Below the pieces are notes generated by a model that had not been told where the DNA came from, ran no database searches, and saw only the letters and a list, made by a program, of their open reading frames with translations. This document shows positions 15,232-35,586 of a stretch of 64,000 nucleotides of DNA, piece by piece. A program made the translations under genes and the position numbers. Each line of letters begins with the position of its first letter. The stretch's first letter is position 1. The DNA comes from Dechloromonas agitata is5 (GTDB lineage Bacteria; Pseudomonadota; Gammaproteobacteria; Burkholderiales; Rhodocyclaceae): assembly GCF_000519045.1 (NCBI RefSeq), contig NZ_KI912532.1, forward strand, positions 868,001 to 932,000, read 5' to 3'.

Positions 15232-15717
15232 TCAGCCGGCGGCCAGCGCCTGCCGCAATTGCGCCGCGTAGGCTTCCAGCTGGTCGCGCGCCGGGTCCTT
15301 GCGCGGCCACGAGAGGCCGACGCCATCGTCGACATGGCGCGGCACGACATGAATGTGAAAATGAAAGACCGTCTGGTCGCCAGCTTGGCCATTGCACTGC
15401 AGCAGGGTCAGGCCCGGTGGATCGAAAGCCTTCTTGACCGCTTGCGCAACGCGATGCGCCGTGCGCATCGCCGCCGCCGCCTCGTCAGCAGTCAAATCGA
15501 GCAGGTCGGTCGCATGGCGCTTGACGGCGACCAGCGTGTGTCCCGGATTGACTTGCCCGAGGTCCATGAAGGCCAGCGTCTGCTCGTCTTCATAAACCCG
15601 GGAAGCCGGAATTTCGCCGGCCACGAGGCGACAGAAGATGCACTGGCCGGCCGGGGAGGTATCGACGAAACCTGTAGGTTCCGGTTTCCGCTGAAAACCC
15701 GAACTCAACAAAATCAA
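15232..15717 (-). CDS. HIT-family hydrolase, 5' end replaced by transposon insertion
   Basis: The frame has the C-x-x-C block CIFC near residue 26 and the histidine triad H119-H121-H123 in HFHIHVVPR, so it is a HIT-family nucleotide hydrolase or transferase. The first 15 residues are encoded by the end of the Tn7-like element; chromosomal sequence begins at 15672. The only start codons upstream of the CIFC block are TTG (15717, 15711, 15708), without a clear ribosome site. Rejoining the gene to the gyrB side of the insertion gives MPGFVDTSPAGQC with an ATG overlapping the gyrB stop. The gene has therefore lost its natural start and its coupling to gyrB but keeps an open frame. Expression may be weak or lost. 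Confidence 0.85.
   Translation of the reverse strand: MILLSSGFQRKPEPTGFVDTSPAGQCIFCRLVAGEIPASRVYEDEQTLAFMDLGQVNPGHTLVAVKRHATDLLDLTADEAAAAMRTAHRVAQAVKKAFDPPGLTLLQCNGQAGDQTVFHFHIHVVPRHVDDGVGLSWPRKDPARDQLEAYAAQLRQALAAG
15668..15672. repeat. Left target-site duplication AAACC
   Basis: The 5 bases AAACC sit directly before TGTAGG, the left terminus. The same 5 bases directly follow the opposite terminus at 35587-35591. A 5-bp duplication is the known hallmark of Tn7-family insertion. Confidence 0.9.
15673..15682 (+). repeat. Left terminal inverted repeat
   Basis: TGTAGGTTCC forms the left tip. It matches the reverse complement of the right tip except at one base. Longer TnsB-binding repeats could not be identified with confidence; the tniQ stop lies only 52 bases inside. 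Confidence 0.88.
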
Positions 15718-15724
15718 TGACTAT

Positions 15725-17659
15725 CTAGCTGTGAAATGGACCTCGGTCATCAGCCAGGAGTCTTTTTTCGGATTTCCCTACTTTTCGCACAGCACTGCCT
15801 GTCGGCGTCAGTACAAAATCTTGGGACTGGCCTGATTCTAATATGAACGATTCGAGCTCCGGCGTTCGACGGTAAAGCAGCTTTTTCGCACCATCCACGC
15901 CGGGACCAGAAACCGGCATGATCGACTGCTCCTCCAGTCGCTTCCTGGCCACGATGGACATCACGCCTATGCGAGCGCCAATCTCACTCGCAAAGACATA
16001 GTCTCGAAAAAACGCTTCTATCGCTTTCCGGCTAAGCCACCAGCCGCCATGGCGCATATTCGGCAAGCGCTCTGCCTTGATGAAATCAAAGGTCACGAGT
16101 TCATAGGCCACCTGCTGGGACAGCGAATACTCGATGGCAAACTGGGGGCAAGTCAGCCATTGCCCGACACCTCTGGCGTTCGACTCAAACCAGTGTTTGA
16201 GTGCCGCTTCCTCAAATACCAGGCTGGCTACACCTCTGGCCGTATCGATCCGGGCTACCGGCCGCAGTTCTTTCGCCATGGCGGACTCTATTGCCGCCAC
16301 GATATCGAGACTCCGCCAGGTCCAGTACCGCAGGATGTGACTGACCGATACGCATCCCTCATCCGGAATACTCACAACCGGGAGGTCTTCGGTAAGCGCC
16401 AGCACCGCTTCGACGTCGGAACGCGGCACAAACCAGACACTACCTGGCAAATCCGACGATTTCGACGCATTCGGAAACAGCAGCTTCAACATGCTGCGCA
16501 TGCGCCGCCTAGAAAACCCAAGTAGTTCTGCGGCCGAAAGCATATCCATTCCACCGGACAGCTTTTCCTTTGCCTGGACCAGTTGATCGCGACGCACCAT
16601 GCAGAACTTCCGGCCGCTATCACTGACGAAAGACTCGCTGTCGAGCACACCTTCACGGATCAGGCGTTCCAGCCGTGGCTGCGAGATACCCAGTTCATCG
16701 CGGGCAATCTTGGCCGGAATCCAGACAGCCCGGTTCATCATCATGGTGGCCAGCCTGCGGTTGCGTTTTGCCACCCCACCTTTCCAGCGCGTACTGACCC
16801 ACTCCCCAAACTCATCCCGAATGACGTCGAACCCGTTGCCCTTGAGCCCCCGGAACAGATACTGATAAACCCAGCCGAAGGTTGTTTTCAGGGCATGGCC
16901 CTCTGCATCCACGACCTTCGACTGCAACTGGTCAAGGATCTGGTGGAATGCCGCAGGCCAGTCCATCAGGATTGCTGCGGCGGCCGAGGTGACTGCCCAG
17001 GAGATCTTCATGGCGCCCGAATCGGGAATCTTGAGTGGATGCCTGCCTTCCGTATTGACCGTGCCGGCCCCGAAAAACCGGATCAACTGCTGCATCTGGC
17101 CAAGACTCAAGACCTTCAAAGGCAACGGGACATTCTCGGCAGGCTGGCCAAACAACTTCGCCCTCAGAATCTCGGCCATCCTGACAACATCCTCCGGGCA
17201 GGCTGCCGCAACCTCCCGGCGCAGATCGGCGCCACAGTCACAACGGATAATCGATTTCCGGTGCCATGAAACCGGTTGCTGGCAGGACGAACAGTGATCC
17301 ACCAGCCAAACCCGATGTTCCGGACAGGCATCCTGAAAATAAAGCTCCCAGTCTGCGTGCCAAACGGGCTCGGCAGCCAGACATTCCGGACAGAATCTGG
17401 AAAATCGGTGGTTCCATAAGCCCTTTTCCGTATTCCAGAGGGCAGAAGTCCGGCGAATACGCGCAGATAGCTCCGGCTCGACCCTCGGATCAGGCATCAA
17501 ACCATGTCTTTGCAGGTTTTCTGCTTCGAAATGGATGTTCAGTCGGCCAATATCGTACAAAAGCAGATGATTCTCGGCAGCAAGACGCAGGAGATAGCCC
17601 TGCGGGCCTTCCATTGATCCGGGATGAGGATGAAACAGGAGGGATGGCAGGTTAGACAT
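15725..17659 (-). CDS. tniQ: TnsD-type TniQ target-selection protein
   Basis: This 644-residue protein has an N-terminal TniQ domain (FHPHPGSMEGPQGYLLRLAAEN) followed by zinc-binding residues C90, C93, C112, H115, C123, C126, C140 and C142. A long C-terminal region of about 450 residues contains several likely helix-turn-helix segments. That length is typical of TnsD-class proteins, which bind a fixed chromosomal site, rather than the short TniQ of CRISPR-associated elements. The inferred target is the 3' end of gyrB. ATG at 17659 was chosen for its GAGGAGG 7 bases upstream; the longer frame starts at TTG. It overlaps the end of tnsC. Confidence 0.9.
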   Translation of the reverse strand: MSNLPSLLFHPHPGSMEGPQGYLLRLAAENHLLLYDIGRLNIHFEAENLQRHGLMPDPRVEPELSARIRRTSALWNTEKGLWNHRFSRFCPECLAAEPVWHADWELYFQDACPEHRVWLVDHCSSCQQPVSWHRKSIIRCDCGADLRREVAAACPEDVVRMAEILRAKLFGQPAENVPLPLKVLSLGQMQQLIRFFGAGTVNTEGRHPLKIPDSGAMKISWAVTSAAAAILMDWPAAFHQILDQLQSKVVDAEGHALKTTFGWVYQYLFRGLKGNGFDVIRDEFGEWVSTRWKGGVAKRNRRLATMMMNRAVWIPAKIARDELGISQPRLERLIREGVLDSESFVSDSGRKFCMVRRDQLVQAKEKLSGGMDMLSAAELLGFSRRRMRSMLKLLFPNASKSSDLPGSVWFVPRSDVEAVLALTEDLPVVSIPDEGCVSVSHILRYWTWRSLDIVAAIESAMAKELRPVARIDTARGVASLVFEEAALKHWFESNARGVGQWLTCPQFAIEYSLSQQVAYELVTFDFIKAERLPNMRHGGWWLSRKAIEAFFRDYVFASEIGARIGVMSIVARKRLEEQSIMPVSGPGVDGAKKLLYRRTPELESFILESGQSQDFVLTPTGSAVRKVGKSEKRLLADDRGPFHS

Positions 17660-18695
17660 GAGCAATCCTCCTCATTTCATGGATGAGGCCCAGCCGCTTG
17701 GCGACCGGAGAACCGATCAGCGTGGAATTACCACCCTCTTCAAACGGCTCCCTGGCCTTGACCAGGGAGCGCTGAACGGCATTCGGCGAAAACGGATTCA
17801 GGCGCTCGGTGACATCGGCCCATACGGTTTCCCGGAATGCCCGGGCATACAGAGGCAAATCCAGCGTATCAAAGCCGGTCGCGCCGGCAACGGAAACCGC
17901 CCCTTCCAGAACTTTTCTCACGAAATCCAGCCGGCCATCGCTCCCAAACCAGAAACGACGGGCCAGATTCGCCTCATAAAGGGGAGTCACGACTGGCAAT
18001 GGCAGACGCTCCTGGAATCCGCGAAGAACCGACCGGAACTCCGCAAAATCCTCGGCGTCGTTCAACTCGAACGCCGAATACGTGATCCGGGAACTGAACC
18101 GGCGCCATAACTGGGGATTGGCCCGCACCACATTCTCACACTCCGGCAGGCCGGCAAGAACGAGTGCTACCCGGGTCGCATCCATCAGGCCCTTCAGCCA
18201 ATCGGAAATGTGCCGGAAATCCTTGAGGGTCTGGGCATAGAAGAAATGCTGGAAGTCATCGAGAACCAGGACCTCCACCTGGCAGCCACCGAGAAACAGG
18301 TGGATCCGCTGGGTTTTCTCCTCGGCCGAACCCCGATGGGCTGCAGGATCCCCCAGCGCCACCAGGATCGCCTGGGCCAGATTCTTGACAGTGGGGCCGG
18401 CTGGCGTGCCCACGCTCAACACGGGAATGCGTGTCCTGCCAGCCTCGCTAAGGCGCGGAAAACGATCCTGATAATGTTCGAGCAGCGTTGATTTACCGAC
18501 CCCGCTCGGGCCTACCACCACAAGGCCGGTACTCACACCATTGGTCCGGCTGTAGTGATGCTGTTCAGCCATCCGGCTGATGGCCGATACAAACCGGCGA
18601 TGCGGAAACAGGTGCTTTCTCAAGGAGAATCCCTCGAAGGCATGCGCCTGCCCTCCCGCGCGATACTGCCTGAGCACATCGAGCGGCGTATTCAT
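17652..18695 (-). CDS. tnsC: TnsC AAA+ ATPase, transposition regulator
   Basis: This 347-residue AAA+ ATPase has Walker A GPSGVGKST at 62-70 and Walker B VLVLDDFQHFF with D146-D147. In Tn7-family systems TnsC links the target-bound TniQ/TnsD to the TnsAB transposase and carries target immunity. The ATG overlaps the tnsB stop (ATGA), and tniQ overlaps its end, so tnsA-B-C-tniQ is one tightly coupled operon. Confidence 0.94.
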   Translation of the reverse strand: MNTPLDVLRQYRAGGQAHAFEGFSLRKHLFPHRRFVSAISRMAEQHHYSRTNGVSTGLVVVGPSGVGKSTLLEHYQDRFPRLSEAGRTRIPVLSVGTPAGPTVKNLAQAILVALGDPAAHRGSAEEKTQRIHLFLGGCQVEVLVLDDFQHFFYAQTLKDFRHISDWLKGLMDATRVALVLAGLPECENVVRANPQLWRRFSSRITYSAFELNDAEDFAEFRSVLRGFQERLPLPVVTPLYEANLARRFWFGSDGRLDFVRKVLEGAVSVAGATGFDTLDLPLYARAFRETVWADVTERLNPFSPNAVQRSLVKAREPFEEGGNSTLIGSPVAKRLGLIHEMRRIAHV

Positions 18696-20668
18696 GATGC
18701 CCCCCTCCTGCTCGCACCCAGTTCGATGGACTCCAGCATCGGCAGGTCATCATCGAGTCCTTCCGGCAGATCCTCAAGGGTCTCGCAAACCATGGAGTCC
18801 ACCGGCTGGCGGGCAACAGCCAGCGGATCCTCATTACGAAGTACGGACTCGCTATCAGTATGGAGCAAAGAGGCCCCGAGTTTGCGGCTGGCCATTTTCT
18901 TGTAATCAAGGCTCGCCCGGATCTTCTCCTCGATGGCTGCCCGGGCCTCTTCTATCTGGGCAATCGAATACTGCTCACCAAACGTGCGCCGGGCATGCTC
19001 CCGAACGAGCCTATGCACCCCTCGTGGCAGGCCGGAGGCGTAATCGCTGTTGATGGCCGGCACACGGATGTACTCCCTGGCATGGTCATCATAGACATGC
19101 ACATACTCGACACTGTCCTCGTAGAACTTCAGGGCAACCTTGCGGTTATCCCCGGTCCGCCGCCGCATTTCCTGCAACTGCCGGGAGTTGTAGTGAAGCC
19201 CCTCAAGTTCAATGCCGTAGTGAAACAGGGTTCGGGTTGCCGGGATGCCGGTGATCACGGCCAGTTGTTCCGGGTAGGCCGGCAACTCAATCACGCGCTG
19301 CATGGCTGACTCCCGCCATTTGAGGAGCGGCGTGGTCCCCAGACCGCGATGGTAGGTCACGCTGTAGATATCAACGATCCACCGGGTAATGACATGGGTC
19401 AGGGTTTCAAAATCAATGGCCGCTATCTCTTCAGCCGGATAATCCCCTCGCTCATCGACGGAGGAGAACACCGTTCCCGGCAGACGATGGATCAGTCCCT
19501 TGGCCAGCGTTCGGAAACAGCGCTCGACAGCCCCCTTGAACTGGGGACGGGCCGCCGGGCAGAACAGCTGCTGAATGCCGAGTTCCTGACAGGAGCGCTC
19601 CAGCGCCTCCGAATGCAGATCCATCCCGTTGTCGAGAGCGATGAGATCCATGATCCCGCAGGCCGGCCATTCCCCCTGAATGTCGGGGAAACGGGCCAGC
19701 CATTCAGCCTTGGGCAGGATCGCCTGGCGCAGGCATTGCAGCACCGAATAGCTGGACGGCGCATGGAACGACAGATAGAAACCGACGATCATCCGGCTAT
19801 ACCGGTCAATCGCCAGCGTCATCCAGGGGCGCCCGAGCGGAATCGTCGTGTTTTTGTCGATCACGATGATGTCGAGCGGCGTATGGTCGATTTCGATGCG
19901 CTCGAGGATGGCGCCGACCTTTAAGGTTCCGGTCACCATCCGGTATTTCACCCGGGCAGCCTCGGCCCCCAGCCGGGAGGAATCCACGACATCCTGCCTG
20001 AGATTGTCGATCCACTTGAAAATCGTCGTTCTAGCAGGCGGTTTGATCTGCTCATCCGGCCCGCGATTCGCATTCATCGCCAGAATCCTCTTCCGGACAG
20101 TGTCGTGAATCACGGTTTTTGGGAGCCGCTGGGCCGTCAGATACGACTCGGCAATCGTCTCCTCAAAGATCTGGAAGCGTGGATCGATGTTCTTCGGCTT
20201 TCCACCGAACACCTGCGGGATCAGGGTCATGATCGACCGGGTATTGCGGTAGCGCTTCCACCAGGCATGAACGCTGGATGGGCAGGGAGGCTTCGGATCA
20301 TTCATGATAGTCGCCGCTTCACGGATCCTTTCTGCCCACACTGGCCGCTGGAAAGGCGTGTTATCCGGGTCAACATAGCGGATATAGCGCTCACGACGCC
20401 TGGCCACAGCCTGCCAATGTGCAGGATAGGTGGCGAGATCACGTGGCGTTGCCAGATAGAGGACGTCCGCTGCAGAACTGAGGCTTCCCTCGTCGATCAC
20501 CCACTGACCTGACTGCCATTTGGCGAGCACTTCCCTGTCATCGAAGTTTTCGATTTCCCCGGTATCACGCTCGAACTGCAACTTCCCGGTCGCCAGGCGC
20601 CGTGCAAGTTCGCGCACGGTCTGGTTCTCCAGAAAACGTAGTCCTTTTTTAAAACAGAACCTGATCAT
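18692..20668 (-). CDS. tnsB: TnsB transposase (DDE)
   Basis: This is a 658-residue transposase of the Mu/Tn7 integrase group. The catalytic triad is read as D261 (EIDHTPL), D346 (ALDNGMD) and E382 (GAVERCFRT), matching the positions known for Tn7 TnsB. The N-terminal 240 residues would bind the element ends, and a C-terminal tail of about 100 residues would contact TnsC. TnsB cuts and joins the 3' ends. The start has GGAGGGG 4 bases upstream. It overlaps tnsA by 20 bases and tnsC by 4. Confidence 0.95.
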   Translation of the reverse strand: MIRFCFKKGLRFLENQTVRELARRLATGKLQFERDTGEIENFDDREVLAKWQSGQWVIDEGSLSSAADVLYLATPRDLATYPAHWQAVARRRERYIRYVDPDNTPFQRPVWAERIREAATIMNDPKPPCPSSVHAWWKRYRNTRSIMTLIPQVFGGKPKNIDPRFQIFEETIAESYLTAQRLPKTVIHDTVRKRILAMNANRGPDEQIKPPARTTIFKWIDNLRQDVVDSSRLGAEAARVKYRMVTGTLKVGAILERIEIDHTPLDIIVIDKNTTIPLGRPWMTLAIDRYSRMIVGFYLSFHAPSSYSVLQCLRQAILPKAEWLARFPDIQGEWPACGIMDLIALDNGMDLHSEALERSCQELGIQQLFCPAARPQFKGAVERCFRTLAKGLIHRLPGTVFSSVDERGDYPAEEIAAIDFETLTHVITRWIVDIYSVTYHRGLGTTPLLKWRESAMQRVIELPAYPEQLAVITGIPATRTLFHYGIELEGLHYNSRQLQEMRRRTGDNRKVALKFYEDSVEYVHVYDDHAREYIRVPAINSDYASGLPRGVHRLVREHARRTFGEQYSIAQIEEARAAIEEKIRASLDYKKMASRKLGASLLHTDSESVLRNEDPLAVARQPVDSMVCETLEDLPEGLDDDLPMLESIELGASRRGAS

Positions 20669-21284
20669 GATGCCCCTCCTCCGGAATGCTGATTTGAGAC
20701 TCCTGTGTCAGGGGCGAGGTCAGGTCGCAATGCACATGACCCCAGGCGATCAGGCGGTAGGCAACTGGAGATCCGACCCGCTCGCAAAGCGCACTCAGAG
20801 GCTGCCCGCCACTGGCCAGCCACTGCCCGACGTCGGATAGCACCTGCTCGACCGAGTCATCACGCCGCTGGTAACGGGCGAGAATGGCAAGATTCTGATG
20901 CAGGGGTTCCCGGCGGATGCTGCACTCAGTCAAGATCCGATAATCCCAGCCCAGCCGCCGGTAGTGATCAGCGACTGCGCGCAGTTTCCGGGCAACATCG
21001 GGCCTCGCCAGCATGGCTTCCGGTTTAACTTCCAGATGGATAACTCGACCGCTATTTCCGGTGATCTCGAAATCGGGGTAGTAGCGTCGCGTGGTCTCCT
21101 GATCCACGTAGCCGATCTCCTCGGGCTGCGCCCGGAATGTCCTCACCCCGGGTGAAAACTCGAACAGAAGGATGGCATCCCTTTCCAGAAGGGACTCCCA
21201 GGGCACCATGTGCCCCATTTTCAGGGACGGAAAATGGCCCCTGATCTTGCGACCGCTGCGGGTCACGACTTTGCGCGAAAGCAT
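20649..21284 (-). CDS. tnsA: TnsA 5'-strand endonuclease
   Basis: TnsA cuts the 5' ends of the element, so transposition is cut-and-paste. This 211-residue protein keeps the restriction-endonuclease-like active site: E30 (WESLLERD), D71 (YYPDFEI) and E85-V-K87 (LEVKPE). The second half is the helical TnsA C-terminal domain. The start at 21284 was chosen because GGAG lies 6 bases upstream; ATG at 21290 has no spacing from that site, and the longest frame would need TTG at 21308. Confidence 0.92.
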   Translation of the reverse strand: MLSRKVVTRSGRKIRGHFPSLKMGHMVPWESLLERDAILLFEFSPGVRTFRAQPEEIGYVDQETTRRYYPDFEITGNSGRVIHLEVKPEAMLARPDVARKLRAVADHYRRLGWDYRILTECSIRREPLHQNLAILARYQRRDDSVEQVLSDVGQWLASGGQPLSALCERVGSPVAYRLIAWGHVHCDLTSPLTQESQISIPEEGHHDQVLF

Positions 21285-21382
21285 CTGCATCTCCAGAAAT
21301 CCAGGCAACAGAAGTCCCTGCTAGCCCGGCATTCATGTTTTTTGAGGTGCCCTTCACCCGAAATGAGGAAAAAACTTCTCTC

Positions 21383-21404
21383 TCAGGCCGTAAAAATGGC
21401 CTGA
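21383..21404. promoter_or_regulatory. Perfect 7-bp inverted repeat upstream of tnsA
   Basis: TCAGGCC (21383-21389) and GGCCTGA (21398-21404) flank an 8-base A/T-rich loop, about 100 bp before the tnsA start. It could be an operator or part of the leader RNA. There is no direct evidence for either. Confidence 0.35.
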
Positions 21405-21451
21405 TGCGTCGGGAAAAGGATGGGGAGTTGGCTTGACGCCCGGAGGAGAGA

Positions 21452-21486: not shown

Positions 21487-21521
21487 ATACCCATGGGGGC
21501 AAGCCGCGAGGTTTGCCCTTT

Positions 21522-21926
21522 TTACATGGTGGCTCTCCTTTCATGATCGCCATCGCTTGAACAGCAATGCGTCGGCGCAAAGGCCTGGAGTAAACCGAGG
21601 ATTGACTGAATCTGACGGGTATCCAGGCGTCCGCTTAGATCACGGAGCTCGTGCCAGAGGGCATATTCGTCAGGGGAGGCATTGGTGGGCAGCAGCACAC
21701 GCCGATCAGAGCATTTCAATGCCCGATCAAGCTCAGCCACTTCTTCGCTATTCAGGGCCAGCCGGCTGATCAGCCGATCAATGAACGCCCGCCGGGGGAG
21801 TCCCTTCAAGCCCTTTTCCAAGGACGACAGATAGCTCTGCTCGTATCCGAGCAGTTCTGCGACCTCCTTTTGCTTCAGGCCGCGCCGTTGTCGAAGTTCG
21901 CGCAAATAGCTCGCGAAGGGGCTCAT
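21522..21926 (-). CDS. Xre-family transcriptional regulator
   Basis: This is a 134-residue protein with an N-terminal Xre/Cro helix-turn-helix: LRELRQRRGLKQKEVAELLG, then YEQSYLSSLEKGLKG, at about residues 8-45. The rest is probably helical and has no recognised domain. It lies just upstream of tnsABC on the same strand and is divergent from the transposase-derived gene, a usual place for an element regulator. Control of tns is inferred. ATG at 21926 has no strong ribosome site. Confidence 0.85.
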   Translation of the reverse strand: MSPFASYLRELRQRRGLKQKEVAELLGYEQSYLSSLEKGLKGLPRRAFIDRLISRLALNSEEVAELDRALKCSDRRVLLPTNASPDEYALWHELRDLSGRLDTRQIQSILGLLQAFAPTHCCSSDGDHERRATM

Positions 21927-22231
21927 GGTGATATCCGGTGAATCACTACCCGGATAATAATCGGCGGAGATACAAGAAACAAACGTAACCTATTGATATA
22001 TATGTGAATACAAAATCAACGGGCTTTGGCTGAAAGCGGGGACGATAGGCAGGTCGGAAAAACTACGTTTGCTGATTTTGAAGTAATGAGCATTCTTATT
22101 TTTCTCTTGCAATAACCAGCTTTCTGTCGATTAGTCGATTTACTTGAATCGTGAATGGTTTCGTATTTTCCGTGTACGATACCGAGGGTTGATTTGGCGC
22201 ACTTTTCGAATACAAAGTGATACCCCCACCC
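21927..22231. other. AT-rich divergent promoter region inside the element
   Basis: These 305 bp separate the leftward Xre gene from the rightward transposase-derived gene and are clearly richer in A/T than the surroundings. No reading frame with family-like sequence is seen. It probably holds both promoters; exact boxes could not be assigned. Confidence 0.45.
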
Positions 22232-23332
22232 ATGGCCGAACGAAAAAAATCCCGCCCCGTTTTCTCTGCCGAGCAGAAGCTGGCCATCCTGCACATGCAG
22301 CCGTTGCTGTATCCCGAGATGCCGATCACGGCACTCTGCAAGCGGGTTGGCATCACACCCAAAACCTATTACGAGTGGGAAAAGGCGTACAAGGCTGACG
22401 GACTGGAGGGATTAAAACCAGTCATTCGTACCCCCTACAGCGCTGCGATAAGCAGCCCGGAGGTGATCCAGGGGATTCTGGCCCTGACCAAAGAACATCC
22501 GCAGTGGTCCTGTACGAGATTGCACAAGGAAATACAGAAACGTGGGGTAAAAACCAGTCGCTATGCTTTCGAAAGAGTCCTGGCCAATCACGGACTACTG
22601 ACTGTCGAATCTCGTGTTGCGGTTGTTGAGCAGGCCATTATCAAAGGCGAGATTTCGCCTAACTCCGAAGAGCTGGAATCGGTGTTCAACATCAATCCCT
22701 GTCTGGCTGACTGGTATCGGATGGGAGAACGACCTCGTTATCCGATAGGTATTGAAGCCGTCTCCTTGGGCCAGAAAAACCGGGCGCTACGGGGTCACTA
22801 CCTCGTTATCACCGTGGATTTCGACAGCCTCTATGTTCTCGGAATACTGGCAAAGGCCAGGGACTATTTGTCAGTGAAGAGACTCGTCAAACAATCACAG
22901 TCACTGTTTGCCAGACCACGCGGGTCGCCCGAAGGGCTATTCATATTCGGCAGCATCTCGGAATCGATCCTCACGGAGGCCTATCAGTGTGAAATCTCGA
23001 TCTACCAGGAAAGCAACAAATATCTGATGAGCACCTGCTTGGGCAGGTCGGAAGGTGCGCTGTCGGTGATCAGGCAAAAAATCAAAGAAACGCTTCTGCC
23101 GAAGCTCAAGGAAGCGAGCTCACTTCAAGCCGGCGAAACCCTCTTGGCCTCTTGGCTTGATGAGCATAACAAGGAATCCGGATATCCGATGTATCCGACT
23201 TTTGGACGAAAATCTATTGATCTGCTTTCTGTCCATACTCGACCTCTCGTGCGCAGCATTTCTGAAGCGCTTTCGCTCTTGAATAGCGGACGGGATTTTC
23301 GGAATCGCAAGCGGACCGTAATGAATCAATAG
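22232..23332 (+). CDS. Transposase-derived protein with degenerate catalytic core
   Basis: This is a 366-residue protein. Residues about 8-125 carry helix-turn-helix segments like those of IS481/IS3-type transposases (ALCKRVGITPKTYYEWEKAY, then WSCTRLHKEI, KTSRYAFERVLANHGLL). The rest resembles the integrase core (HYLVITVDFDSLYVLGI, and LLASWLDEHNKESGYP near the end). Where active enzymes have the first Asp, the D-N-G block and the Glu, this protein reads GIEAVSLGQ, FGSISES and GRSEGALSVI, so the triad appears lost. It may be a domesticated DNA-binding protein of the element. ATG at 22232 is preferred; GTG at 22217 is possible. The assignment is by eye. Confidence 0.6.
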   Translation: MAERKKSRPVFSAEQKLAILHMQPLLYPEMPITALCKRVGITPKTYYEWEKAYKADGLEGLKPVIRTPYSAAISSPEVIQGILALTKEHPQWSCTRLHKEIQKRGVKTSRYAFERVLANHGLLTVESRVAVVEQAIIKGEISPNSEELESVFNINPCLADWYRMGERPRYPIGIEAVSLGQKNRALRGHYLVITVDFDSLYVLGILAKARDYLSVKRLVKQSQSLFARPRGSPEGLFIFGSISESILTEAYQCEISIYQESNKYLMSTCLGRSEGALSVIRQKIKETLLPKLKEASSLQAGETLLASWLDEHNKESGYPMYPTFGRKSIDLLSVHTRPLVRSISEALSLLNSGRDFRNRKRTVMNQ

Positions 23333-25807: not shown

Positions 25808-25818
25808 CGGGCATCTCC

Positions 25819-27692: not shown

Positions 27693-27702
27693 GGCCATCT
27701 CC

Positions 27703-28533
27703 TTACAAGGCCGAAGCCACCAGCCGCTGGGTATAGGCGTGCTGGGGGTCTTCGAGAATCTGGTCGGTGAGGCCGGACTCGATGATGCGGCCGTATTTCA
27801 TAACGATGGTTCGTCCGGCGAGTAGGCGAATAACACCCAGGTCGTGGGTCACGACGATCATGGCCGTGTTCAGTTCCTGCTGGATTTCGAGGATCAGGTC
27901 GAGAATGCGGGCTTGTACCGAGAGATCCAGGCCGGTTGTCACCTCGTCCAGGTAGAGCAGAGGCGGTTGTGTCGCCAGCGCTTTGGCAATCTGTACCCGC
28001 TGCTGCATCCCGCCGGAAAACTTCTTGGGCGATTCGTCCATCCGCTCAGGCAGGACTTCCGTGCGTTCCAGCAGGCGACGGGCGCGTTCACGGATTTCCC
28101 CGTAATGGGAGAGATCGCTCATCAGCAGGCGCTCGGCGATGTTGCCGCCGGCGGAGACATTGAAGTTGAGTCCCAGATGCGGGTTCTGATAGACCATGCC
28201 TAGCCGGTGATTACGCAACCATCGCTGTTCGGCGGCATTCAGGGAGAACAGATTCCACTGCCGCGCCTCGTCGAAGACGATAGCCTCGCCTGCGCTGGGC
28301 GCATCATCGAAATACAGGGTTTTGACGACCGTCGATTTGCCGCTGCCGGATTCACCCATGATGCCGAGAATCTCCCCCGCATGAAGGTCGAAGCTCACGC
28401 CATGGGCAGCGACCACGGAGCCACAGTGCGGGCAGATATTGGTATCTGCCTCGGGGCCGGTGCTGTCAATGCACTGCGGGCAGCCACGGCCGTGAATCTT
28501 GGTCAGGTTGCGGACTTCCAGTATTTTCTTCAT
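27703..28533 (-). CDS. phnK: C-P lyase complex ATP-binding protein PhnK with zinc-ribbon-like insert
   Basis: This 276-residue ABC ATPase resembles oligopeptide-type ATPases: Walker A GESGSGKST around K66, signature FSGGMQQRVQ, and Walker B LLYLDEVTTGLDL, where the usual P is V. Between the first strand and Walker A there is an insert with C18-x2-C21-x12-C34-x2-C37, a likely zinc ribbon that E. coli PhnK, as I recall it, lacks. PhnK docks on PhnJ in the C-P lyase complex. It overlaps phnJ by 4 bases. Confidence 0.92.
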   Translation of the reverse strand: MKKILEVRNLTKIHGRGCPQCIDSTGPEADTNICPHCGSVVAAHGVSFDLHAGEILGIMGESGSGKSTVVKTLYFDDAPSAGEAIVFDEARQWNLFSLNAAEQRWLRNHRLGMVYQNPHLGLNFNVSAGGNIAERLLMSDLSHYGEIRERARRLLERTEVLPERMDESPKKFSGGMQQRVQIAKALATQPPLLYLDEVTTGLDLSVQARILDLILEIQQELNTAMIVVTHDLGVIRLLAGRTIVMKYGRIIESGLTDQILEDPQHAYTQRLVASAL

Positions 28534-29426
28534 GCGCTCACCTCGTGGGAAGGCTCAGCTAGACGCTGGTTGCAGTAATCGGAATCGGAGCACTGCCAGA
28601 CCTTGCTACCATCGTCGGCGATTAGTTCGTCGAGGAAACTATCGTCGGCACCGCAGCGCCCGCAGGTACGTCGAGCCCCGTGTTCGTCACTAAAGTCCTC
28701 GGTGCGGAACGGCACGTCGTCGAAGGCCAGTGGCGCGGCCACGGTGTAAGGTGGCACGGCATAGATCTTCTTTTCCCGGCCGGCACCCAGCAGAACCAGC
28801 GCCTTCGAACGATGCAGGCGTGGAATGTCGTAGCGTGGGATCGGGCTGGGGTCGATGACGTAATGGCCGTTGATCCGCGTCGGATAGCGGTGCGAGATGG
28901 TGATTTCGTCAAACTGCACGATGTCCTCGTACAGTTTGGTCAGCAGCCGTGAATAGTCGCCTTCACCGTGCATTACCTTGCGCTTGGCTTCGGAGGGTTC
29001 AATCACAACTAGCGGGTCGGGATAAGGCACCTGCAGGATCAGCACTTGCGATTCGGACAGTTCAACTTCCGGAATGCGGTGACGCGACTGAATCAGCGTC
29101 GCCTCCGACGTCCGTTCCGTGGTATCGACGCCCGGGCAGGTCAGTTCGACGAAATGGCGCAGGTTGACCGCATTGACCGAGTCGTCCGAGCCTTGGTCGA
29201 TCACCTTCAGCGTATCGTCCTGGCCGATCAGCGATAGGGTCAGTTGCAGGCCGCCGGTACCAAATCCGCGCCCCATCGGCATTTCGCGCGAGGCGTAAGG
29301 CGTCTGGTAGCCGGGAATGGCAATGGCTTTCAGGATGGTGCGCCGGACTTCGCGCTTGGCGAACTCGTCGAGAAAACCGAAGCTGTAGTCGGCCTCGTCG
29401 AGCGGTAGTTCATAGTTCGGATTCAC
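28530..29426 (-). CDS. phnJ: Alpha-D-ribose 1-methylphosphonate 5-phosphate C-P lyase PhnJ
   Basis: PhnJ is the radical SAM enzyme that breaks the carbon-phosphorus bond. This 298-residue protein keeps the unusual cluster pattern C255-x2-C258-x20-C279-x5-C285, the last being the expected thiyl-radical cysteine. Other family blocks are YNFGFLDE-like YSFGFLDE and GRGFGTGGLQLTL. The start is GTG at 29426 with AAGGAG 7 bases upstream; it overlaps the phnI stop. The catalytic set looks complete. Confidence 0.95.
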   Translation of the reverse strand: MNPNYELPLDEADYSFGFLDEFAKREVRRTILKAIAIPGYQTPYASREMPMGRGFGTGGLQLTLSLIGQDDTLKVIDQGSDDSVNAVNLRHFVELTCPGVDTTERTSEATLIQSRHRIPEVELSESQVLILQVPYPDPLVVIEPSEAKRKVMHGEGDYSRLLTKLYEDIVQFDEITISHRYPTRINGHYVIDPSPIPRYDIPRLHRSKALVLLGAGREKKIYAVPPYTVAAPLAFDDVPFRTEDFSDEHGARRTCGRCGADDSFLDELIADDGSKVWQCSDSDYCNQRLAEPSHEVSA

Positions 29427-30559
29427 GCGTTTTCTCCTTGACGCCGGGGCTGGCTTTCTTGCGCGCACTGAGCAGCCTTGGCCTGGGTTGTCCGCAGGCG
29501 ATCCATGTCGGATTGGAAGGTGACGTAGTGCGGCATCTTGTAATGGCTGGCGAAACCCATGGAATCGACGCCATCGACGTGCAGCAGGACAAACTCAGGA
29601 TCTTCTGAGGGGTTGCGTGGCCCATCGCGCATTCCCTTTTGCAGGGCACGATCAAGGATGGCCATGGCAATCGCCTTCACCTCGTTGTGACCGAAGCAGG
29701 CACCGTAGCCCAGCGTGAAGACAGGAGGCCCGTCGGTGTCGGTACCTTCATACATGGCCACCACCTCGCACTCGGTCATCAGGACTTCACCCGCTTCGAT
29801 GGGTTCTCCCGTTACCGGATGCGGCAACATGATCGGCAGATAACCGACGCGCAACTCGGCGATGGTCGGATGCACATCACCATAACCGCGCATGTTGGAA
29901 TAGGCGATGGCCAGCAGGGAACCTGTTTCGGCGCGTGCCATCGTGGCCAGCGCGGCTGAGCGTGCGACCGGAAAGACCAGCGGATCGCGGGTAATGTCGA
30001 AAGGCGTTCCGGCCGGACCGTTGAGGGCGGGCAGCAACCCTTCGGCGCGCAGGGCGTCGACGACCTTCGGAAAGCAGTCGGGCAGATCGGTTTCCGGGGT
30101 GTTCGCCATGAAGTGACGGGCCACATCGCGGAAGGATTCCGGCGACTCGTTCGCCAGGTCGAGACGCATCAGGCGCAAGGCGTAATCGTTGGTCGGTCCA
30201 AGCATCTGGCCACCGGGAATGTCCTTGAAGGCACTTGATATGCGCCGGATCAGGCGCATTTTCCCGCTGTCCTGGATGGGGGCTTCGAGCAGTCGGGGTT
30301 TGGTCGAACGATAGGCGCGTAATGCGAAGGCCGCCTCCAGCGTGTCGCCCTGCATTTGCTTGACAGCCAGCGCCGCCAGACGTGGGTGATACAGCCCACC
30401 CTCGGAGACGATGCGTGAGGTAAGCAGTCGCAACTGGTTTTCGATGGTCGATAGCGACAGCGGTGTGCCGGTATCCCCCTCGGCGGTGCGCAGGGCTTCC
30501 AGGGCTGCTTCGGCGCCACGGATCGCACGGCCGCCGCCCTTGATGGCAACGTAACCCAT
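29423..30559 (-). CDS. phnI: C-P lyase core subunit PhnI
   Basis: This 378-residue subunit, with PhnG, PhnH and PhnL, couples the phosphonate to ATP, displacing adenine. It begins MGYVAIKGGGRAI, the usual PhnI N-terminus, and carries PTIAELRVGYLP and the late histidine-rich YKMPHYVTFQSDLDR-like block (YKMPHYVTFQSDMDRL). GGAG lies 7 bases upstream of the ATG. It overlaps phnH (TGATG) and phnJ (GTGA). Confidence 0.95.
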   Translation of the reverse strand: MGYVAIKGGGRAIRGAEAALEALRTAEGDTGTPLSLSTIENQLRLLTSRIVSEGGLYHPRLAALAVKQMQGDTLEAAFALRAYRSTKPRLLEAPIQDSGKMRLIRRISSAFKDIPGGQMLGPTNDYALRLMRLDLANESPESFRDVARHFMANTPETDLPDCFPKVVDALRAEGLLPALNGPAGTPFDITRDPLVFPVARSAALATMARAETGSLLAIAYSNMRGYGDVHPTIAELRVGYLPIMLPHPVTGEPIEAGEVLMTECEVVAMYEGTDTDGPPVFTLGYGACFGHNEVKAIAMAILDRALQKGMRDGPRNPSEDPEFVLLHVDGVDSMGFASHYKMPHYVTFQSDMDRLRTTQAKAAQCAQESQPRRQGENA

Positions 30560-31125
30560 CAGTTCGCTCCTTTCAGGTCGATGCGTGTGGTTCGGGGTAG
30601 CGCCAGCACCTGGCGTTCAGCCACGACGATCATGTCCACACCCAGCGGAAAGCCGGCATTCCATTGCTCGCGCTTCTGCCACCAGACAGGATCGACGCCC
30701 TGGACGGCAACCGTCGCAGTGCCGTCGATACCCGGCCCGCTCAGGTGAAGGCTGGCACCGGTGCCGAGACGTTCAGCAACGACGATCAGGGTGGCACCTT
30801 GTTCGGGGTTTTCTAGGCTACCCAGGATGGGCTGGAAATCAGGGGGGAGAACGCCAGGCTGGACGACGAATTGCGCCATTTCCGGTGTCCCTGAGTTGGC
30901 GCCCAGGCGGCGATGCTCGTCGTCGTCCAGTAAGCGATGCGGGTCAGCCAGGCGGTTGCTGCGGTCGACCAAGGTTGCCAGCAGAAGTGGCAGGCCATGC
31001 TTCGCTTCAGTCGCTAGTTGGCCCAGCCGGCCAGGATAGGCGAAGCAGTTCATGATCTGGCGAAATGCGCCCTGTTGCGCCACAGGTTGCCAGTCGGTAC
31101 CCGCGGAACGGATGTGATCAGGCAT
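30559..31125 (-). CDS. phnH: C-P lyase core subunit PhnH
   Basis: This is a 188-residue C-P lyase core subunit. Family features are FRQIMNCFAYPGR near residue 22 and the C-terminal GVDMIVVAERQVLALPRTTRI. The start at 31125 is set by GAGGAGG 6 bases upstream; the longer frame is an artefact of overlap with phnG. It overlaps phnG by 8 bases. Confidence 0.93.
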   Translation of the reverse strand: MPDHIRSAGTDWQPVAQQGAFRQIMNCFAYPGRLGQLATEAKHGLPLLLATLVDRSNRLADPHRLLDDDEHRRLGANSGTPEMAQFVVQPGVLPPDFQPILGSLENPEQGATLIVVAERLGTGASLHLSGPGIDGTATVAVQGVDPVWWQKREQWNAGFPLGVDMIVVAERQVLALPRTTRIDLKGAN

Positions 31126-31603
31126 CGTCATCCTCCTCATCAGTTGTTCCGAGCAGGGAGAAATCAACGCGGGTCGCCGCCATCAGCTTCTGGCGGTCGA
31201 CGGTGATTTCGCGGATTTTTTCAGCACCCTCGTTAAGCAGGGTGCGGGCCGTTTCGAACCCAGGCAGACCGGCGGCCAGAACACCGTCGAGAATGGCCAG
31301 CGAACGGGCCAAGCGGGCGCGGTCGTCCATGATGATCGCGCCACCTTCAACAGCCTTGCCGGCACCGTCGGCAATACGGACATGGGCGCGGGCCAGTGGG
31401 ATTTCTCCGAGGTAATACGCCTCGCCGAGCGCCCCGTCGTTGAGCGGTAACAAGCCGAGGCCCGACTGCGGCAGTTCGATATCTTCGACAACGTAGCGCT
31501 TGCTCAGCTCGTCGGCCGCAGTTCGAACTCGGTCGGCCGGAAGAGCCGTCCATAAACGCAGCCACTGGCTACGCGGTAAATCAGTGTGGGTCAGCATGAC
31601 CAT
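31118..31603 (-). CDS. phnG: C-P lyase core subunit PhnG
   Basis: This 161-residue subunit is the first gene of the phnG-to-P unit. Family features are the residues around GEAYYLGEIPLARAHVRI near 65 and the acidic C-terminus. AGGAG lies 4 bases before ATG 31603; ATG 31597 is an alternative. The 75-bp spacer to phnE upstream holds a candidate PhnF operator, so this may be a second transcription start. Confidence 0.92.
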   Translation of the reverse strand: MVMLTHTDLPRSQWLRLWTALPADRVRTAADELSKRYVVEDIELPQSGLGLLPLNDGALGEAYYLGEIPLARAHVRIADGAGKAVEGGAIIMDDRARLARSLAILDGVLAAGLPGFETARTLLNEGAEKIREITVDRQKLMAATRVDFSLLGTTDEEDDDA

Positions 31604-31611
31604 GGAACTCC

Positions 31612-31678: not shown

Positions 31679-32716
31679 TTAGATCAGCTTGTTGCGGATG
31701 CGCGCCGACAGTTGATCAAGGATGAAAACGAAGATGAAGATGGCGATCAGGATGGTCATGACGTGGCCGTACTGGAACATGTCGAAACGCCCCTTTAGTT
31801 CCTGCCCGATGCCACCCGCACCCACCAGACCAATGACGGTTGCCATACGCAGATTGCGATCCAGAATGTAGGCGGTGTAGGCTATGTACTGCGGCAGCAC
31901 TTGCGGTACGACGCCATACCAAAGCGTTTTCAGCTTGCCGGCACCAATCGCTTCGAGCGCCTCCTGCGGCTTCTTGTCAGCGTTCTCGATGTCTTCGGCG
32001 TAGAACTTGCCGAGAAAACCCGCCGCATGCAGCCCCAGGGCCAGCACACCGGCAATCGGCCCGAAACCGTAAGCCAGCACCAAGAAGAGTGCGACGATCA
32101 GTTCCGGAGCGGAACGCAGCAGACTGATGAAGCCTCTTGCTGCGGTGTAGCTCGCCTGGTTCGGGCTATAGTTGCGGGCCGCGAAGTAAGCGAGCGGCGC
32201 GGAAAGGATGACTGCGATGATCGTTCCCCAGAGAGCGATTTCCAGCGTTTCGATCATCTTGATGAACACCGACACTACATAGCCGACGGGTTTGACCAGC
32301 ACCTCGACCGATTCTGAGTGTGGTTCCAGTTGAAGCGTTTCAGTGTTCATGCGTTGCTCAACGCGCTCTTGAACTTCGATGCGCGAGAGAATCGGAAGCT
32401 GATCGCGTTTGAACTCTGGCAGGCGGGAGATTTCCTCCGTTTCACCGAGCACAGGCGGCCACATTGAGGTGGCAACCCGGGAGAGACCTCTTACCACCTG
32501 GGAATCGTCGGCAACGCCAAGCAACTTGCCAGCGGCCTCGGTCGTCATCATGACCATCTTGTCCATCTCGGTTCTCTGCCCCGTGAGGATTAGTACGATC
32601 AAGATGGCGGCAATGATCAGGAGATGTCTCAACGAATAAGGCGCATCAAGATGCCAATGCACCTGGCTGCCCGGCGCGGGAACGGGAATGGGTTTTTGCA
32701 TGGCAACCTTAGACAT
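31679..32716 (-). CDS. phnE: Phosphonate ABC transporter permease PhnE
   Basis: This is a 345-residue inner-membrane permease. One helix at about 30-48 is followed by a hydrophilic segment of about 95 residues and then the permease domain from about 130 on, with the EAA-like coupling loop EALEAIGAGKLKTLWYGVVPQ. It is longer than E. coli PhnE because of the hydrophilic segment. ATG at 32716 overlaps the phnC stop by 8 bases; ATG at 32701 is an alternative. Confidence 0.9.
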   Translation of the reverse strand: MSKVAMQKPIPVPAPGSQVHWHLDAPYSLRHLLIIAAILIVLILTGQRTEMDKMVMMTTEAAGKLLGVADDSQVVRGLSRVATSMWPPVLGETEEISRLPEFKRDQLPILSRIEVQERVEQRMNTETLQLEPHSESVEVLVKPVGYVVSVFIKMIETLEIALWGTIIAVILSAPLAYFAARNYSPNQASYTAARGFISLLRSAPELIVALFLVLAYGFGPIAGVLALGLHAAGFLGKFYAEDIENADKKPQEALEAIGAGKLKTLWYGVVPQVLPQYIAYTAYILDRNLRMATVIGLVGAGGIGQELKGRFDMFQYGHVMTILIAIFIFVFILDQLSARIRNKLI

Positions 32717-33503
32717 GTGCGAGTTCAAAACCGGCGGCTTCCGGTTCTGCCTTTTTGGGCGGATCTTCCCAATGTGCGCCGTGATACAGGGCGGATACGC
32801 GTTCATCGGTGAACTCAGCGGGCGTGCCGTCGAAAACGATCTTGCCGTCACGCATGCCAACGATGCGGTCACCGAACTCCCGCGCCAGATCGATCTGGTG
32901 CAAGCTGCACAGCACCGTCGTGTTGTGCTCACGTGCTGCATCGCGAATCAGCGTCAGGATGTCGCGTGAAATCTTGGGGTCGAGACTGGCCACCGGTTCA
33001 TCAGCAAGAACGACCTCCGGATCGAGCATGAAGGCTCGGGCAATACCGACCCGTTGTTGCTGGCCGCCAGAGAGATCGCCAGCACGGCGTTTCAGGTGGG
33101 TCGGTGCCAGCCCGACCCGTTGCAGCAATCCGCAAGCCTTGCGGCGGTGCTCCGACCGGAACCAGCCTGTCAGGGCGCGGGGTGTGGAAACTACCGGCAG
33201 CAAGCCCGACAGAACATTGGCGGCAACACTCAATCGCGAGGTTAGGTTGAAATGCTGGTGAATCATGGCAATGCGGCGGCGTAACTGCTTTTGGGTGGCG
33301 TGTGTCAGTGCCGTGCCGTCGATGCGCACCTGGCCTTGCGTTGGGTGCATCAGACCATTCACCGCACGCAGCAGGGTCGATTTGCCGGCACCCGAGGGGC
33401 CGAGGATGACGCAGAACTGACCGCGCGGAATATGCAGTGAAATGTCGCTCAGCGCTTTGGTGCCGTCTGGCCACGCTTTGCCGAGATTGTCGAAGTGGAT
33501 CAT
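32709..33503 (-). CDS. phnC: Phosphonate ABC transporter ATPase PhnC
   Basis: This 264-residue ATPase has Walker A GPSGAGKST near residue 35, signature LSGGQQQRV and Walker B VVLADEPVASLDP, typical of PhnC. It powers import through PhnE with PhnD. The start MIHFDNLGK has AAAGG 7 bases upstream. It follows phnD by 68 bp. Confidence 0.93.
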   Translation of the reverse strand: MIHFDNLGKAWPDGTKALSDISLHIPRGQFCVILGPSGAGKSTLLRAVNGLMHPTQGQVRIDGTALTHATQKQLRRRIAMIHQHFNLTSRLSVAANVLSGLLPVVSTPRALTGWFRSEHRRKACGLLQRVGLAPTHLKRRAGDLSGGQQQRVGIARAFMLDPEVVLADEPVASLDPKISRDILTLIRDAAREHNTTVLCSLHQIDLAREFGDRIVGMRDGKIVFDGTPAEFTDERVSALYHGAHWEDPPKKAEPEAAGFELAHV

Positions 33504-33571
33504 GGCTTCGCCTTTCAGAATCCTGTCCGGCACGACCGGAGTCGTGCCAGTTTTGTTATAGGCAAGGCGGA

Positions 33572-34519
33572 TCAGCGGGTGCTGGCCTTCTTCATGATGT
33601 CTTGCTTGACTTGGTCGGTGACCAGTTCAAACATCTTGCCGGCCTTTGCCATGTCGCCTTCGCTGACATTTGCGGTATAGCCGTCAACCTTGCCACCACC
33701 ATAGCCACGGATCTGATCTTTGGTGATGCCAGGCAGCTTGTCGACTTGGTTGAAAGCGTCCTTCAACTTGCCCTTGATGCCGGCATCGACCTTCGGGTGA
33801 ATAGCCAGCGGCGGATAGGGAATCGGCGAGCTCTTGACGATGACTTTGACCTTGCTCGGATCGATTGCCTTGCTGTTGACCGCTTTCTCAAAGGAGTCAA
33901 AAGAAGCGCCGCCAGCGTCGACCAACCCTTCGGCCATTGCCTTGAGAACGTTGGCGTGGCTGCCGGCCATGTTGATGCCGCCAAGGTCGCGGGCGGGTTG
34001 CAGGCCACTCTCGATCATCATCGCGACCGGTACGTTGAAGCTGGATGTCGAGTTCACGTCACCCAGGGCGACTTTCTTGCCCTTGAGGTCGGACAGCTTG
34101 TTGATGCCGCTATCGGTACGGGCAAAAATGCCGGAGTAGTAAACCGAGTCGCCATGACGAACCGCCAAAGCCAACAACTCGGCGCAACCTCGCCCCTTGG
34201 CCTGAAGATAAGAGGCCGGGCCATACCAGGCAATATCGGCAGCGCCATTGCACATGGCTTCAACGACAGCCGAATAGCTCTGACCAACCTTGAGATCGAA
34301 CTTCAGGCCGGTGGCCTGCTCGATGGCCGAGAAAATCGGCTGAAAATCCTTCTTGGTGCCGTCTTCCGTACCACCGTCGGCTGGAATGAGGATGACGCGC
34401 AGCGGCTTGGCGGCGCTGCCATCGTGCTGGACTTGGGCAAAGCCGGTGATCGGCAGTGCCGCAGCGGCGGCCATGCCAAGCGCCAGCAACTGGCGGCGAA
34501 GGGTGGATTTCAGATACAT
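33572..34519 (-). CDS. phnD: Phosphonate-binding periplasmic protein PhnD
   Basis: This 315-residue secreted protein has a signal peptide (positively charged start, hydrophobic core, cleavage after about GFAQ at residue 29). The PhnD-type binding fold shows in DFQPIFSAIEQATG, AMCNGAADIAWYGPASYL and DVNSTSSFNVP. It captures phosphonates in the periplasm for PhnCE. AGGAG lies 8 bases upstream of the ATG. Confidence 0.94.
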   Translation of the reverse strand: MYLKSTLRRQLLALGMAAAAALPITGFAQVQHDGSAAKPLRVILIPADGGTEDGTKKDFQPIFSAIEQATGLKFDLKVGQSYSAVVEAMCNGAADIAWYGPASYLQAKGRGCAELLALAVRHGDSVYYSGIFARTDSGINKLSDLKGKKVALGDVNSTSSFNVPVAMMIESGLQPARDLGGINMAGSHANVLKAMAEGLVDAGGASFDSFEKAVNSKAIDPSKVKVIVKSSPIPYPPLAIHPKVDAGIKGKLKDAFNQVDKLPGITKDQIRGYGGGKVDGYTANVSEGDMAKAGKMFELVTDQVKQDIMKKASTR

Positions 34520-34569
34520 TATTCAGGCTCCTGCAAGTGGGGTGACAAAAGGTGAGGTTTGAGCGACCT

Positions 34570-35298
34570 TCAGGGATTGATGCGCAGTTGGATCCGGTCT
34601 GCACGGAACCGGGTAATCGCGTATTCGACCGGGGCTCCATCCCGGTCGTCTACGTTGACACTCTTGACCCGCAGCACCGGCCGGTTCTGCGGCATTCCCA
34701 GACACTTGGCGTCATCTCCTTGCGGGAGCACCGCCGTCACCAGACTCTCGATGCGACGTAGCTGGCAGCCATACTCGGCGGCGAGAAAGGCATGCAGCGA
34801 ATCGCCGAGGTAGCGCGACAGCAGGTCAGGGAAGCGTTCTGCGGGAATGAAATGGGAAATGACGCACATGGGACGTTCGTCGACCGTGCGCAGCGTCTCG
34901 ATCCAGTGCACCGGGTCGCCTTCCCTAATGGCCAGTCGCTCGGCTACCCTCTTGATGGCAGGCAAGGTCTGTTTGCGGAGAATCCGGTTGGCCGTGAACA
35001 TGCCGAGGGCTGCCAGGTTTTCAGTGAAACGGGTGCCTGTACCAATCTGGTAGTCCAGTTGGCTATCCAAAACGACTACTCCCTTGCCATGACGGCGCTC
35101 GACCATCCCTGTATCGACCAGTTCGTCGATAGCTCGGCGCAAGGTATGGCGATTGACGCCAAATCGTGCTGCCAGATCACCTTCCGAAGGGAGGAAATCC
35201 CCGGGCGCGTACAGTCCGGATACTTCCTGTTCCAGTTGCCTCGCAATCTGGGCGTACAGGGCTTCACCGGATTCACGGGTGACGGCGTAAAGGCTCAT
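34570..35298 (-). CDS. phnF: GntR/HutC-family regulator PhnF
   Basis: This 242-residue regulator has an N-terminal winged helix (PSEGDLAARFGVNRHTLRRAIDELVDTGMVERR, about 38-70) and a C-terminal UTRA ligand-binding domain. As the first gene, upstream of phnDCE on the same strand, it probably represses the phn genes until phosphonate or phosphate starvation signals relieve it. A palindrome with a TCTAGA core lies 9 to 16 bp before its own start, consistent with autoregulation. Confidence 0.9.
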   Translation of the reverse strand: MSLYAVTRESGEALYAQIARQLEQEVSGLYAPGDFLPSEGDLAARFGVNRHTLRRAIDELVDTGMVERRHGKGVVVLDSQLDYQIGTGTRFTENLAALGMFTANRILRKQTLPAIKRVAERLAIREGDPVHWIETLRTVDERPMCVISHFIPAERFPDLLSRYLGDSLHAFLAAEYGCQLRRIESLVTAVLPQGDDAKCLGMPQNRPVLRVKSVNVDDRDGAPVEYAITRFRADRIQLRINP

Positions 35299-35303
35299 GT
35301 GTA

Positions 35304-35500: not shown

Positions 35501-35529
35501 AAAAAAGCCGACCTGGGCGGTCGGCTTTT
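35501..35529 (-). terminator. Bidirectional intrinsic terminator inside the gyrB-side transposon end
   Basis: GCCGACC (35507-35513) pairs with GGTCGGC (35519-35525) around a 5-base loop. Six T follow on the minus strand and four on the plus strand. It lies 72 bp after the gyrB stop but inside the element, so it now ends gyrB transcription and shields the cargo from it. Confidence 0.8.
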
Positions 35530-35530
35530 C

Positions 35531-35576
35531 AAATCCAGCTAAATCCAGAAAAACTGGAAAAATCCAGACTTAAGCT
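35531..35576. repeat. Repeated AAATCCAG units near the gyrB-side end
   Basis: AAATCCAG occurs at 35531, 35541 and just before 35561, with CTGGA in inverse orientation between and after. They lie within 60 bp of the terminus, where TnsB-binding repeats would be expected. Similar units were not found at the other end, so the role is uncertain. Confidence 0.4.
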
Positions 35577-35586
35577 GGATCCTACA
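35577..35586 (-). repeat. Right terminal inverted repeat
   Basis: GGATCCTACA forms the gyrB-side tip; its reverse complement TGTAGGATCC matches the left tip at 9 of 10 bases. Confidence 0.88.

Follow-up and report, generated by a model that had tools for sequence, protein, structure and literature searches.

A Tn7-like transposon with a C-P lyase operon behind gyrB in Dechloromonas agitata is5, and related elements at the same gene

The transposon, its genes and its junctions

The DNA considered here is a stretch of 64,000 nucleotides from Dechloromonas agitata is5 (NCBI RefSeq assembly GCF_000519045.1, contig NZ_KI912532.1, positions 868,001 to 932,000; hereafter the window). It contains a Tn7-like transposon of 19,914 bp (15673-35586), which is inserted 10 bp past the stop codon of an intact gyrB gene and carries an operon for C-P lyase as its cargo (Table 1). 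The genes tnsA, tnsB, tnsC and tnsD are adjacent to each other, as assigned by Pfam matches and by solved relatives, and all four reading frames are intact. The closest solved relatives of TnsB and TnsC are those of Tn6677 (4.5e-53 and 2.6e-25, respectively). The match of TnsB to the rve family is below the Pfam cut-off, and its D-D-E residues are seen by eye in the alignment to the Tn6677 TnsB. The D...E-x-K motif of TnsA and the Walker A and B motifs of TnsC are likewise recognized by eye in the translations. TnsD is predicted to combine a TniQ fold with a row of about five modules resembling a helix-turn-helix (HTH). An initial annotation of this DNA had placed TnsA, TnsB, TnsC and a TnsD-type TniQ protein, with intact catalytic residues, inside the element; the gene matches agree with this, as do the motifs of the first three proteins. 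The host genome has a single tnsB of this type, the other match being distant (25% identical). No TnsE family was found among the matches of the element open reading frames (ORFs) scanned, the smaller listed ORFs being outside the scan. No Cas family was found among the scanned ORFs either, eight of which were also compared with PADLOC; no search for CRISPR arrays was made.

The ends of the element are TGTAGG and CCTACA, thus of the TGT...ACA type, with 9 of 10 bases pairing in the terminal inverted repeats, and a 5-bp target duplication flanks them. Both the repeats and the AAACC copies at 15668-15672 and 35587-35591 were re-read in the window as the initial annotation had given them. When the whole window was searched for TGTAGG...CCTACA pairs that are separated by more than 3 kb and have the same 5 bp on either side, the pair of the element was the only one, and a chance pairing of ends was rejected on this basis. 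Candidate TnsB binding sites are TGGATTT-type repeats, recognized by eye at the right end; a script gave one further weak copy, and the tool used gave no direct repeats.

Removal of the element in silico yields GACATCTGATGCCGGGTTTCGTCGATACC. In this sequence gyrB, ending in ...ATC TGA, is joined to a HIT-family gene that opens with ATG CCG GGT TTC (MPGFVDTSPAGQ), the ATG overlapping the gyrB stop as TGATG (MPGFVDTSPAGQCIFCR). The earlier statement that removal gives a sensible junction therefore holds in that gyrB rejoins the HIT gene, but the junction is not neutral, because the start of the latter has been displaced. A total of 11 nt of the HIT frame (ATG CCG GGT TT) are stranded on the gyrB side of the element, and the native start is therefore lost. 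The in-frame TTG that now opens the ORF is located inside the element, directly after the tnsD stop, and might act as a restart for the HIT gene. In two related genomes, G007 and G021, gyrB adjoins the HIT gene with no element between them, and a short spacer is present that is missing in the host of the window. Weak HIT matches (L018-L032 and similar) were not used.

Table 1. Features of the window at and around the transposon.
Feature	Position	Strand	Remark
HIT-family gene	15232..15717	-	insertion-displaced start; listed ORF opens at TTG within element
Target-site duplication AAACC, left copy	15668..15672	.	GGTTT on gyrB strand
Left (distal) transposon end	15673..15702	.	TGTAGGTTCC; G009 homology stops here
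tnsD / TniQ target selector	15725..17665	-	646 aa; TniQ domain and predicted HTH modules
tnsC, AAA ATPase (TniB family)	17652..18695	-	347 aa
tnsB, DDE transposase	18692..20668	-	658 aa
tnsA, TnsA-like endonuclease	20649..21308	-	219 aa as listed
Xre-type HTH protein	21522..21926	-	relative precedes tnsA in many related elements
IS481/IS630-like ORF	22217..23332	+	N-terminal HTH part alone matches, no DDE domain match
EamA-type membrane protein	23630..24487	-	phn_DUF6, marginally under NCBIfam cut-off
phnP	24480..25250	-	
phnN	25241..25867	-	
phnM	25819..26973	-	
phnL	26970..27698	-	
phnK	27703..28533	-	best NCBIfam match, under cut-off
phnJ	28530..29468	-	C-P lyase catalytic subunit
phnI	29423..30559	-	
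phnH	30559..31167	-	
phnG	31118..31603	-	
phnE permease	31679..32941	-	listed ORF; true start probably further in
phnC ATP-binding protein	32709..33533	-	
phnD phosphonate-binding protein	33572..34519	-	
phnF regulator (GntR/UTRA)	34570..35298	-	
Terminator-like hairpin	35503..35529	-	gyrB direction, near gyrB-side end
Right (gyrB-proximal) transposon end	35557..35586	.	closes with GGATCCTACA; G009 homology stops here
Target-site duplication AAACC, right copy	35587..35591	.	
gyrB	35597..38074	-	intact; final codons EPRREFIETNALNARIDI, the putative recognition site

Further copies and relatives at gyrB

A second copy of the element is present in G009, a genome of the same genus and the only one among the 100 searched as relatives with a TnsD identical across all 646 residues. 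In a scan of named genomes, a TnsD of 100% identity was found on contig CAMKYP010000067.1 from an uncultured Dechloromonas sp. metagenome assembly. Contig C67 of G009 follows the first 12,800 bp of the element with 2 mismatches and then departs at the left end, while C200 follows the last 7,086 bp with 0 mismatches and departs at the right end. Leaving aside 28 bp that neither contig covers, this amounts to 2 mismatches in 19,886 bp compared (99.98-100% identity); the gyrB genes are 90.1% identical at the DNA level. On C200, the final gyrB codons are followed by TGA, CAAACGGTAAC and the element, and the contig that holds gyrB, C259, overlaps C200 by 55 exact bases. On C67, the element is followed by GTAAC, a terminator-like hairpin, and a gene read by eye as dtd (D-aminoacyl-tRNA deacylase). 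The duplication is accordingly GTAAC in G009 and GGTTT (gyrB strand) in the window, the far neighbor of the element differs as well, and the flanks diverge at both ends, apart from one chance-matching base beside the left end. Because G009 has the same element with another duplication and another far neighbor, both ends are proven and the insertion is a separate one. Judged from these sequences, the same element has landed separately and recently at the gyrB of two species, and its two sites show past movement. The initial annotation had pointed to related genomes as a check, and these agree with it: G007 and G021 are element-free, and the G009 flanks diverge exactly at the element ends. Its description of a complete 19.9-kb Tn7-like transposon with base-exact ends is borne out by the ends, the duplication, the tns genes and the G009 copy. 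That description did not include gyrB targeting, the set of elements at the gyrB 3' end or the phosphonate role of the C-P lyase cargo.

To place the element in its order, 399 genomes of the latter were surveyed with a three-row TnsD profile (E up to 1e-20), and 19 of them matched. In 14 of the 19, which belong to eight families, TnsD is on the strand of gyrB and at most 26 kb downstream of this gene; under the assumption of random and independent placements, the probability of this is ~7e-29. At 18 loci, the called end of the element is 2-11 bp past the gyrB stop and 32-44 nt past the NAL codons, the latter distance being exactly 36 in seven cases. The gyrB 3' codons, EPRRxFIExNAL, are conserved. 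A credible distal end with a matching 5-bp duplication was found at nine of these loci (this window, G336, G434, G183, G311, G006, G058, G069 and G029), with element lengths of about 12 to 24 kb. Together with a second G006 element and that of G009, eleven elements have both ends and the duplication, and the duplications of the gyrB elements differ from each other. At each of the 16 related loci with detected tns genes, these point the same way as gyrB; the insertion beside this conserved gene has a fixed orientation. In the TnsD tree, one clade with a support of 99/98 consists of nine TnsDs, each from a gyrB locus.

Two elements are stacked at one gyrB in G006 (G006:C143 32161-66094; L049, L050, L083). 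The first begins 7 bp past the stop and has the duplication GGCTT, and the second adjoins it with the duplication CTTGT. Since their TnsBs are related, target immunity between the two seems to be absent. In G029 and G445, matches were seen to some of the four tns genes only, all of them weak, and these elements are therefore assigned to a distant lineage. Among 369 genomes drawn from the class, a nine-row TnsD profile at 1e-40 matched only G108 and G000, the host of the window, both from the same order, the genomes outside this order being an uncounted share of the 369. A three-row alignment gave 4 loci in the scan of named genomes. The 10 kb examined in Rhodocyclus tenuis (L133) do not include gyrB, and its site assignment was therefore left out.

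Some loci show further variations. Two element ends lie 54 nt apart past gyrB in G398 (L127/L148), perhaps as the trace of a second insertion. A second type of end, TGTCGGATGCCACAG, is likewise found at gyrB in G069 and G022 (L073, L075), and G069 encodes a shorter TniQ-like protein in addition to a long TnsD, such that two selectors may share one element. Related TnsABCD loci also occur away from gyrB, in G424 (L151, L152), G341 (L153) and G085 (L059); end pairs and target genes were not found for these. We have also considered whether TnsD copies away from gyrB might be located at parE, and discarded this: hundreds of kb separate parE from TnsD in G424 and G071, and in G341 and G085 the two are on different contigs.

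The hairpin at the gyrB-side end of the window element has a folding energy of -19.7 kcal/mol (z -6.2). When the gyrB-side ends were searched over their first 250 bp, a strong hairpin followed by T in the gyrB direction was found at 12 of 18 ends, compared to 12 of 540 internal segments and none of nine distal ends (Fisher p 2.6e-14, with related rows). The hairpin beyond the far element end in G009 is one that we take for gyrB's own terminator, and the element hairpin would then replace the terminator that the insertion displaced. Tn7 itself is known to enter the terminator region of glmS, according to the title of Gay et al. (1986).

Probable target selection by TnsD

The above results make it very probable that the window contains a complete Tn7-like TnsABCD transposon set 10 bp past the gyrB stop, whose TnsD likely recognizes the final gyrB codons and guides the insertion there, while GyrB is left intact. 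Because relatives with other cargo share the same spot and facing throughout the order, gyrB is likely recognized by TnsD as a safe landing place. The binding of gyrB by TnsD itself is inferred from the sequences. In the mechanism that we propose, the approximately five predicted HTH modules of TnsD would read the conserved EPRRxFIExNAL codons, and its TniQ domain would recruit the TnsC ATPase. TnsC would fix the side and the distance of the insertion, and a cut-and-paste reaction by TnsA and TnsB would place the element, cargo end toward gyrB, and leave the 5-bp duplication.

A number of observations weigh against this proposal. In five of the 19 matched genomes (G137, G210, G283, G341 and G424), the TnsD match is elsewhere than at gyrB or on another contig; in G137 the contig is a short separate one, and in G210 the TnsD, on another contig, contains stops. 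G085 has one TnsD copy at gyrB and one elsewhere. No credible distal end was found at the other nine of the 18 loci (G445, G217, G108, G293, G219, G398, G176, G085 and G071). In the TnsD tree, gyrB targeting is not confined to one side of a branch (three changes), and G293 falls among the other-site copies. G071 (L094 from 5225) has a TGTAGG end 2 bp past the gyrB stop and no tns genes within the 9.8 kb examined, and this end is either a remnant or part of a very long element. Regarding the hairpins, six of the 18 gyrB-side ends have no strong one in the gyrB direction, and the score cut-off was set within the same script as the count. The opposite strand also scores at 11 of the 18 ends, and the count is therefore no test of direction. 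Finally, the G009 sequence comes from a metagenome assembly with a completeness of 89% and a contamination of 5%.

Three alternative explanations were weighed. It is unlikely that the element is a dead remnant, immobile at present. Such a scenario would fit the region between the tns genes and the cargo (window 21300-24000), where the GC content is low (about 0.52-0.53) and the IS481/IS630-like ORF lacks a DDE match, its C-terminal half having no family match; it would also fit the lack of TnsE or CRISPR genes among the matches of the ORFs scanned and of any plasmid or viral copy found. However, both ends and the four tns frames are intact, and a near-identical copy is present in another species, with the low-GC stretch and its IS-like ORF unchanged. 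As for copies on other replicons, no plasmid record covers 80% of the element, the matches being phn genes; relatives of TnsD occur in 11 plasmid records, all with less than 60% identity, and there is no relative among 16 pattern matches in viral contigs.

We find it quite improbable that gyrB is located not by TnsD but by an unrecognized selector in the variable cargo or by a DNA structure at the gyrB terminator. In its favor, the distance from the stop varies by 9 bp, and the DNA downstream of gyrB differs among genomes. On the other hand, the cargo varies while HTH-tnsABCD is constant, the distance to the conserved codons clusters at 36, and in Tn7 it is TnsD that has this role, according to the part of PMC2918618 consulted.

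Alternatively, the elements near gyrB could result from ancient vertical inheritance or from a hotspot for islands in general, without site-specific targeting by TnsD. This idea can draw on the position of gyrB beside dnaA and dnaN in a region of stable gene order and on gyrB ends with no TnsD nearby. It has very little probability given that the element DNA is 99.98-100% identical, and the duplications are different, in two hosts with a gyrB identity of 90%, that the ends are only 2-11 bp from the stop with varied 5-bp duplications and a fixed orientation, and that relatives with empty gyrB ends exist. An end without a nearby TnsD is seen at the gyrB of G210, where it is of the TGTCGG type; none was found in G341, G424, G283, G137, G007, G021, G028 or G008.

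Beyond TnsD targeting of gyrB in this window, we lean toward a broader conclusion, namely that Tn7-like elements in eight or more families of the order use the gyrB 3' end as an attachment site that had not been recorded before. Several TnsD lineages would insert there, elements would be able to stack, and most would bring along a terminator that keeps the essential gyrB locus working. Defence islands and, in the present case, a whole nutrient pathway moved between species on one element would be exchanged through this site. As far as searched, the gyrB homing site of a wide set of elements, the terminator that most of them bring and the C-P lyase cargo are likely to be new. A programmed landing site behind an essential and highly conserved gene, together with a natural TnsD that likely reads gyrB, could be developed into a tool for site-specific integration other than attTn7. 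Such a site would also account for an island hotspot beside gyrB with defence genes that differ by species.

Known systems and cargo

The element resembles Tn7 in having TnsA, TnsB, TnsC and a TniQ-domain TnsD, TGT...ACA ends and a 5-bp duplication, as well as in its insertion in one orientation directly past the stop codon of a gene that is both essential and conserved. The TnsD of Tn7 binds to the final 36 bp of the glmS frame, and the element is inserted ~25 bp beyond, as described in the part of PMC2918618 consulted. The present element differs in that its target is gyrB rather than glmS, so that the site is not attTn7, in that no TnsE was matched in the ORFs scanned, and in that the Tn7 TnsB is a more distant match than that of Tn6677. 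Tn6677, which provides the closest solved relatives of TnsB and TnsC, belongs with the I-F3 CRISPR-associated transposons, in one branch of which TnsD targets parE, a gyrB homologue, according to the available part of a review (PMC11406308) in which the word gyrB was not found. Unlike the I-F3 elements, the one considered here shows no Cas genes among the ORFs scanned, is set at gyrB instead of parE, and has a single long TnsD equipped with HTH modules where the I-F3 elements have a short TniQ associated with Cascade. The Tn7-like transposons of PMC8649781 and PMC10293859, both consulted in part, are of the same kind, their cargo being defensive or metabolic and their target selectors diverse. 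Neither gyrB nor gyrase occurs as a word in the main texts of these two papers, whose supplementary tables were outside the search, and phosphonate is absent from the main text of PMC8649781. PMC12452197 uses gyrB merely as a marker gene, and the word is not in PMC10702557. No gyrB attachment site was found in the literature searched, with subscription papers and supplements outside its reach. For A. ferrooxidans, both Tn7-like copies and phn genes are present, and the part of PMC2621215 consulted draws no link between them.

The cargo comprises the phnGHIJKLM core, with PhnK under the NCBIfam cut-off, and the phnCDE transporter. Its location between the target-side (gyrB) end and tnsA is not known as the arrangement of Tn7. 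Of 76 genomes of the genus, 4 have PhnJ; in the host of the window as well as in G009, the sole PhnJ is the one inside the element. From its gene content, the cargo would allow the host to use phosphonates, and a whole nutrient operon is here carried as Tn7-like cargo. The other gyrB elements carry different genes. A PADLOC scan of ten cargo proteins from four of these elements identified QatABCD in G006, LmuB in G183, and a type II methyltransferase and a helicase in G336; three of the proteins had no match. The cargo is thus variable between related elements, while HTH-tnsABCD is common to them.

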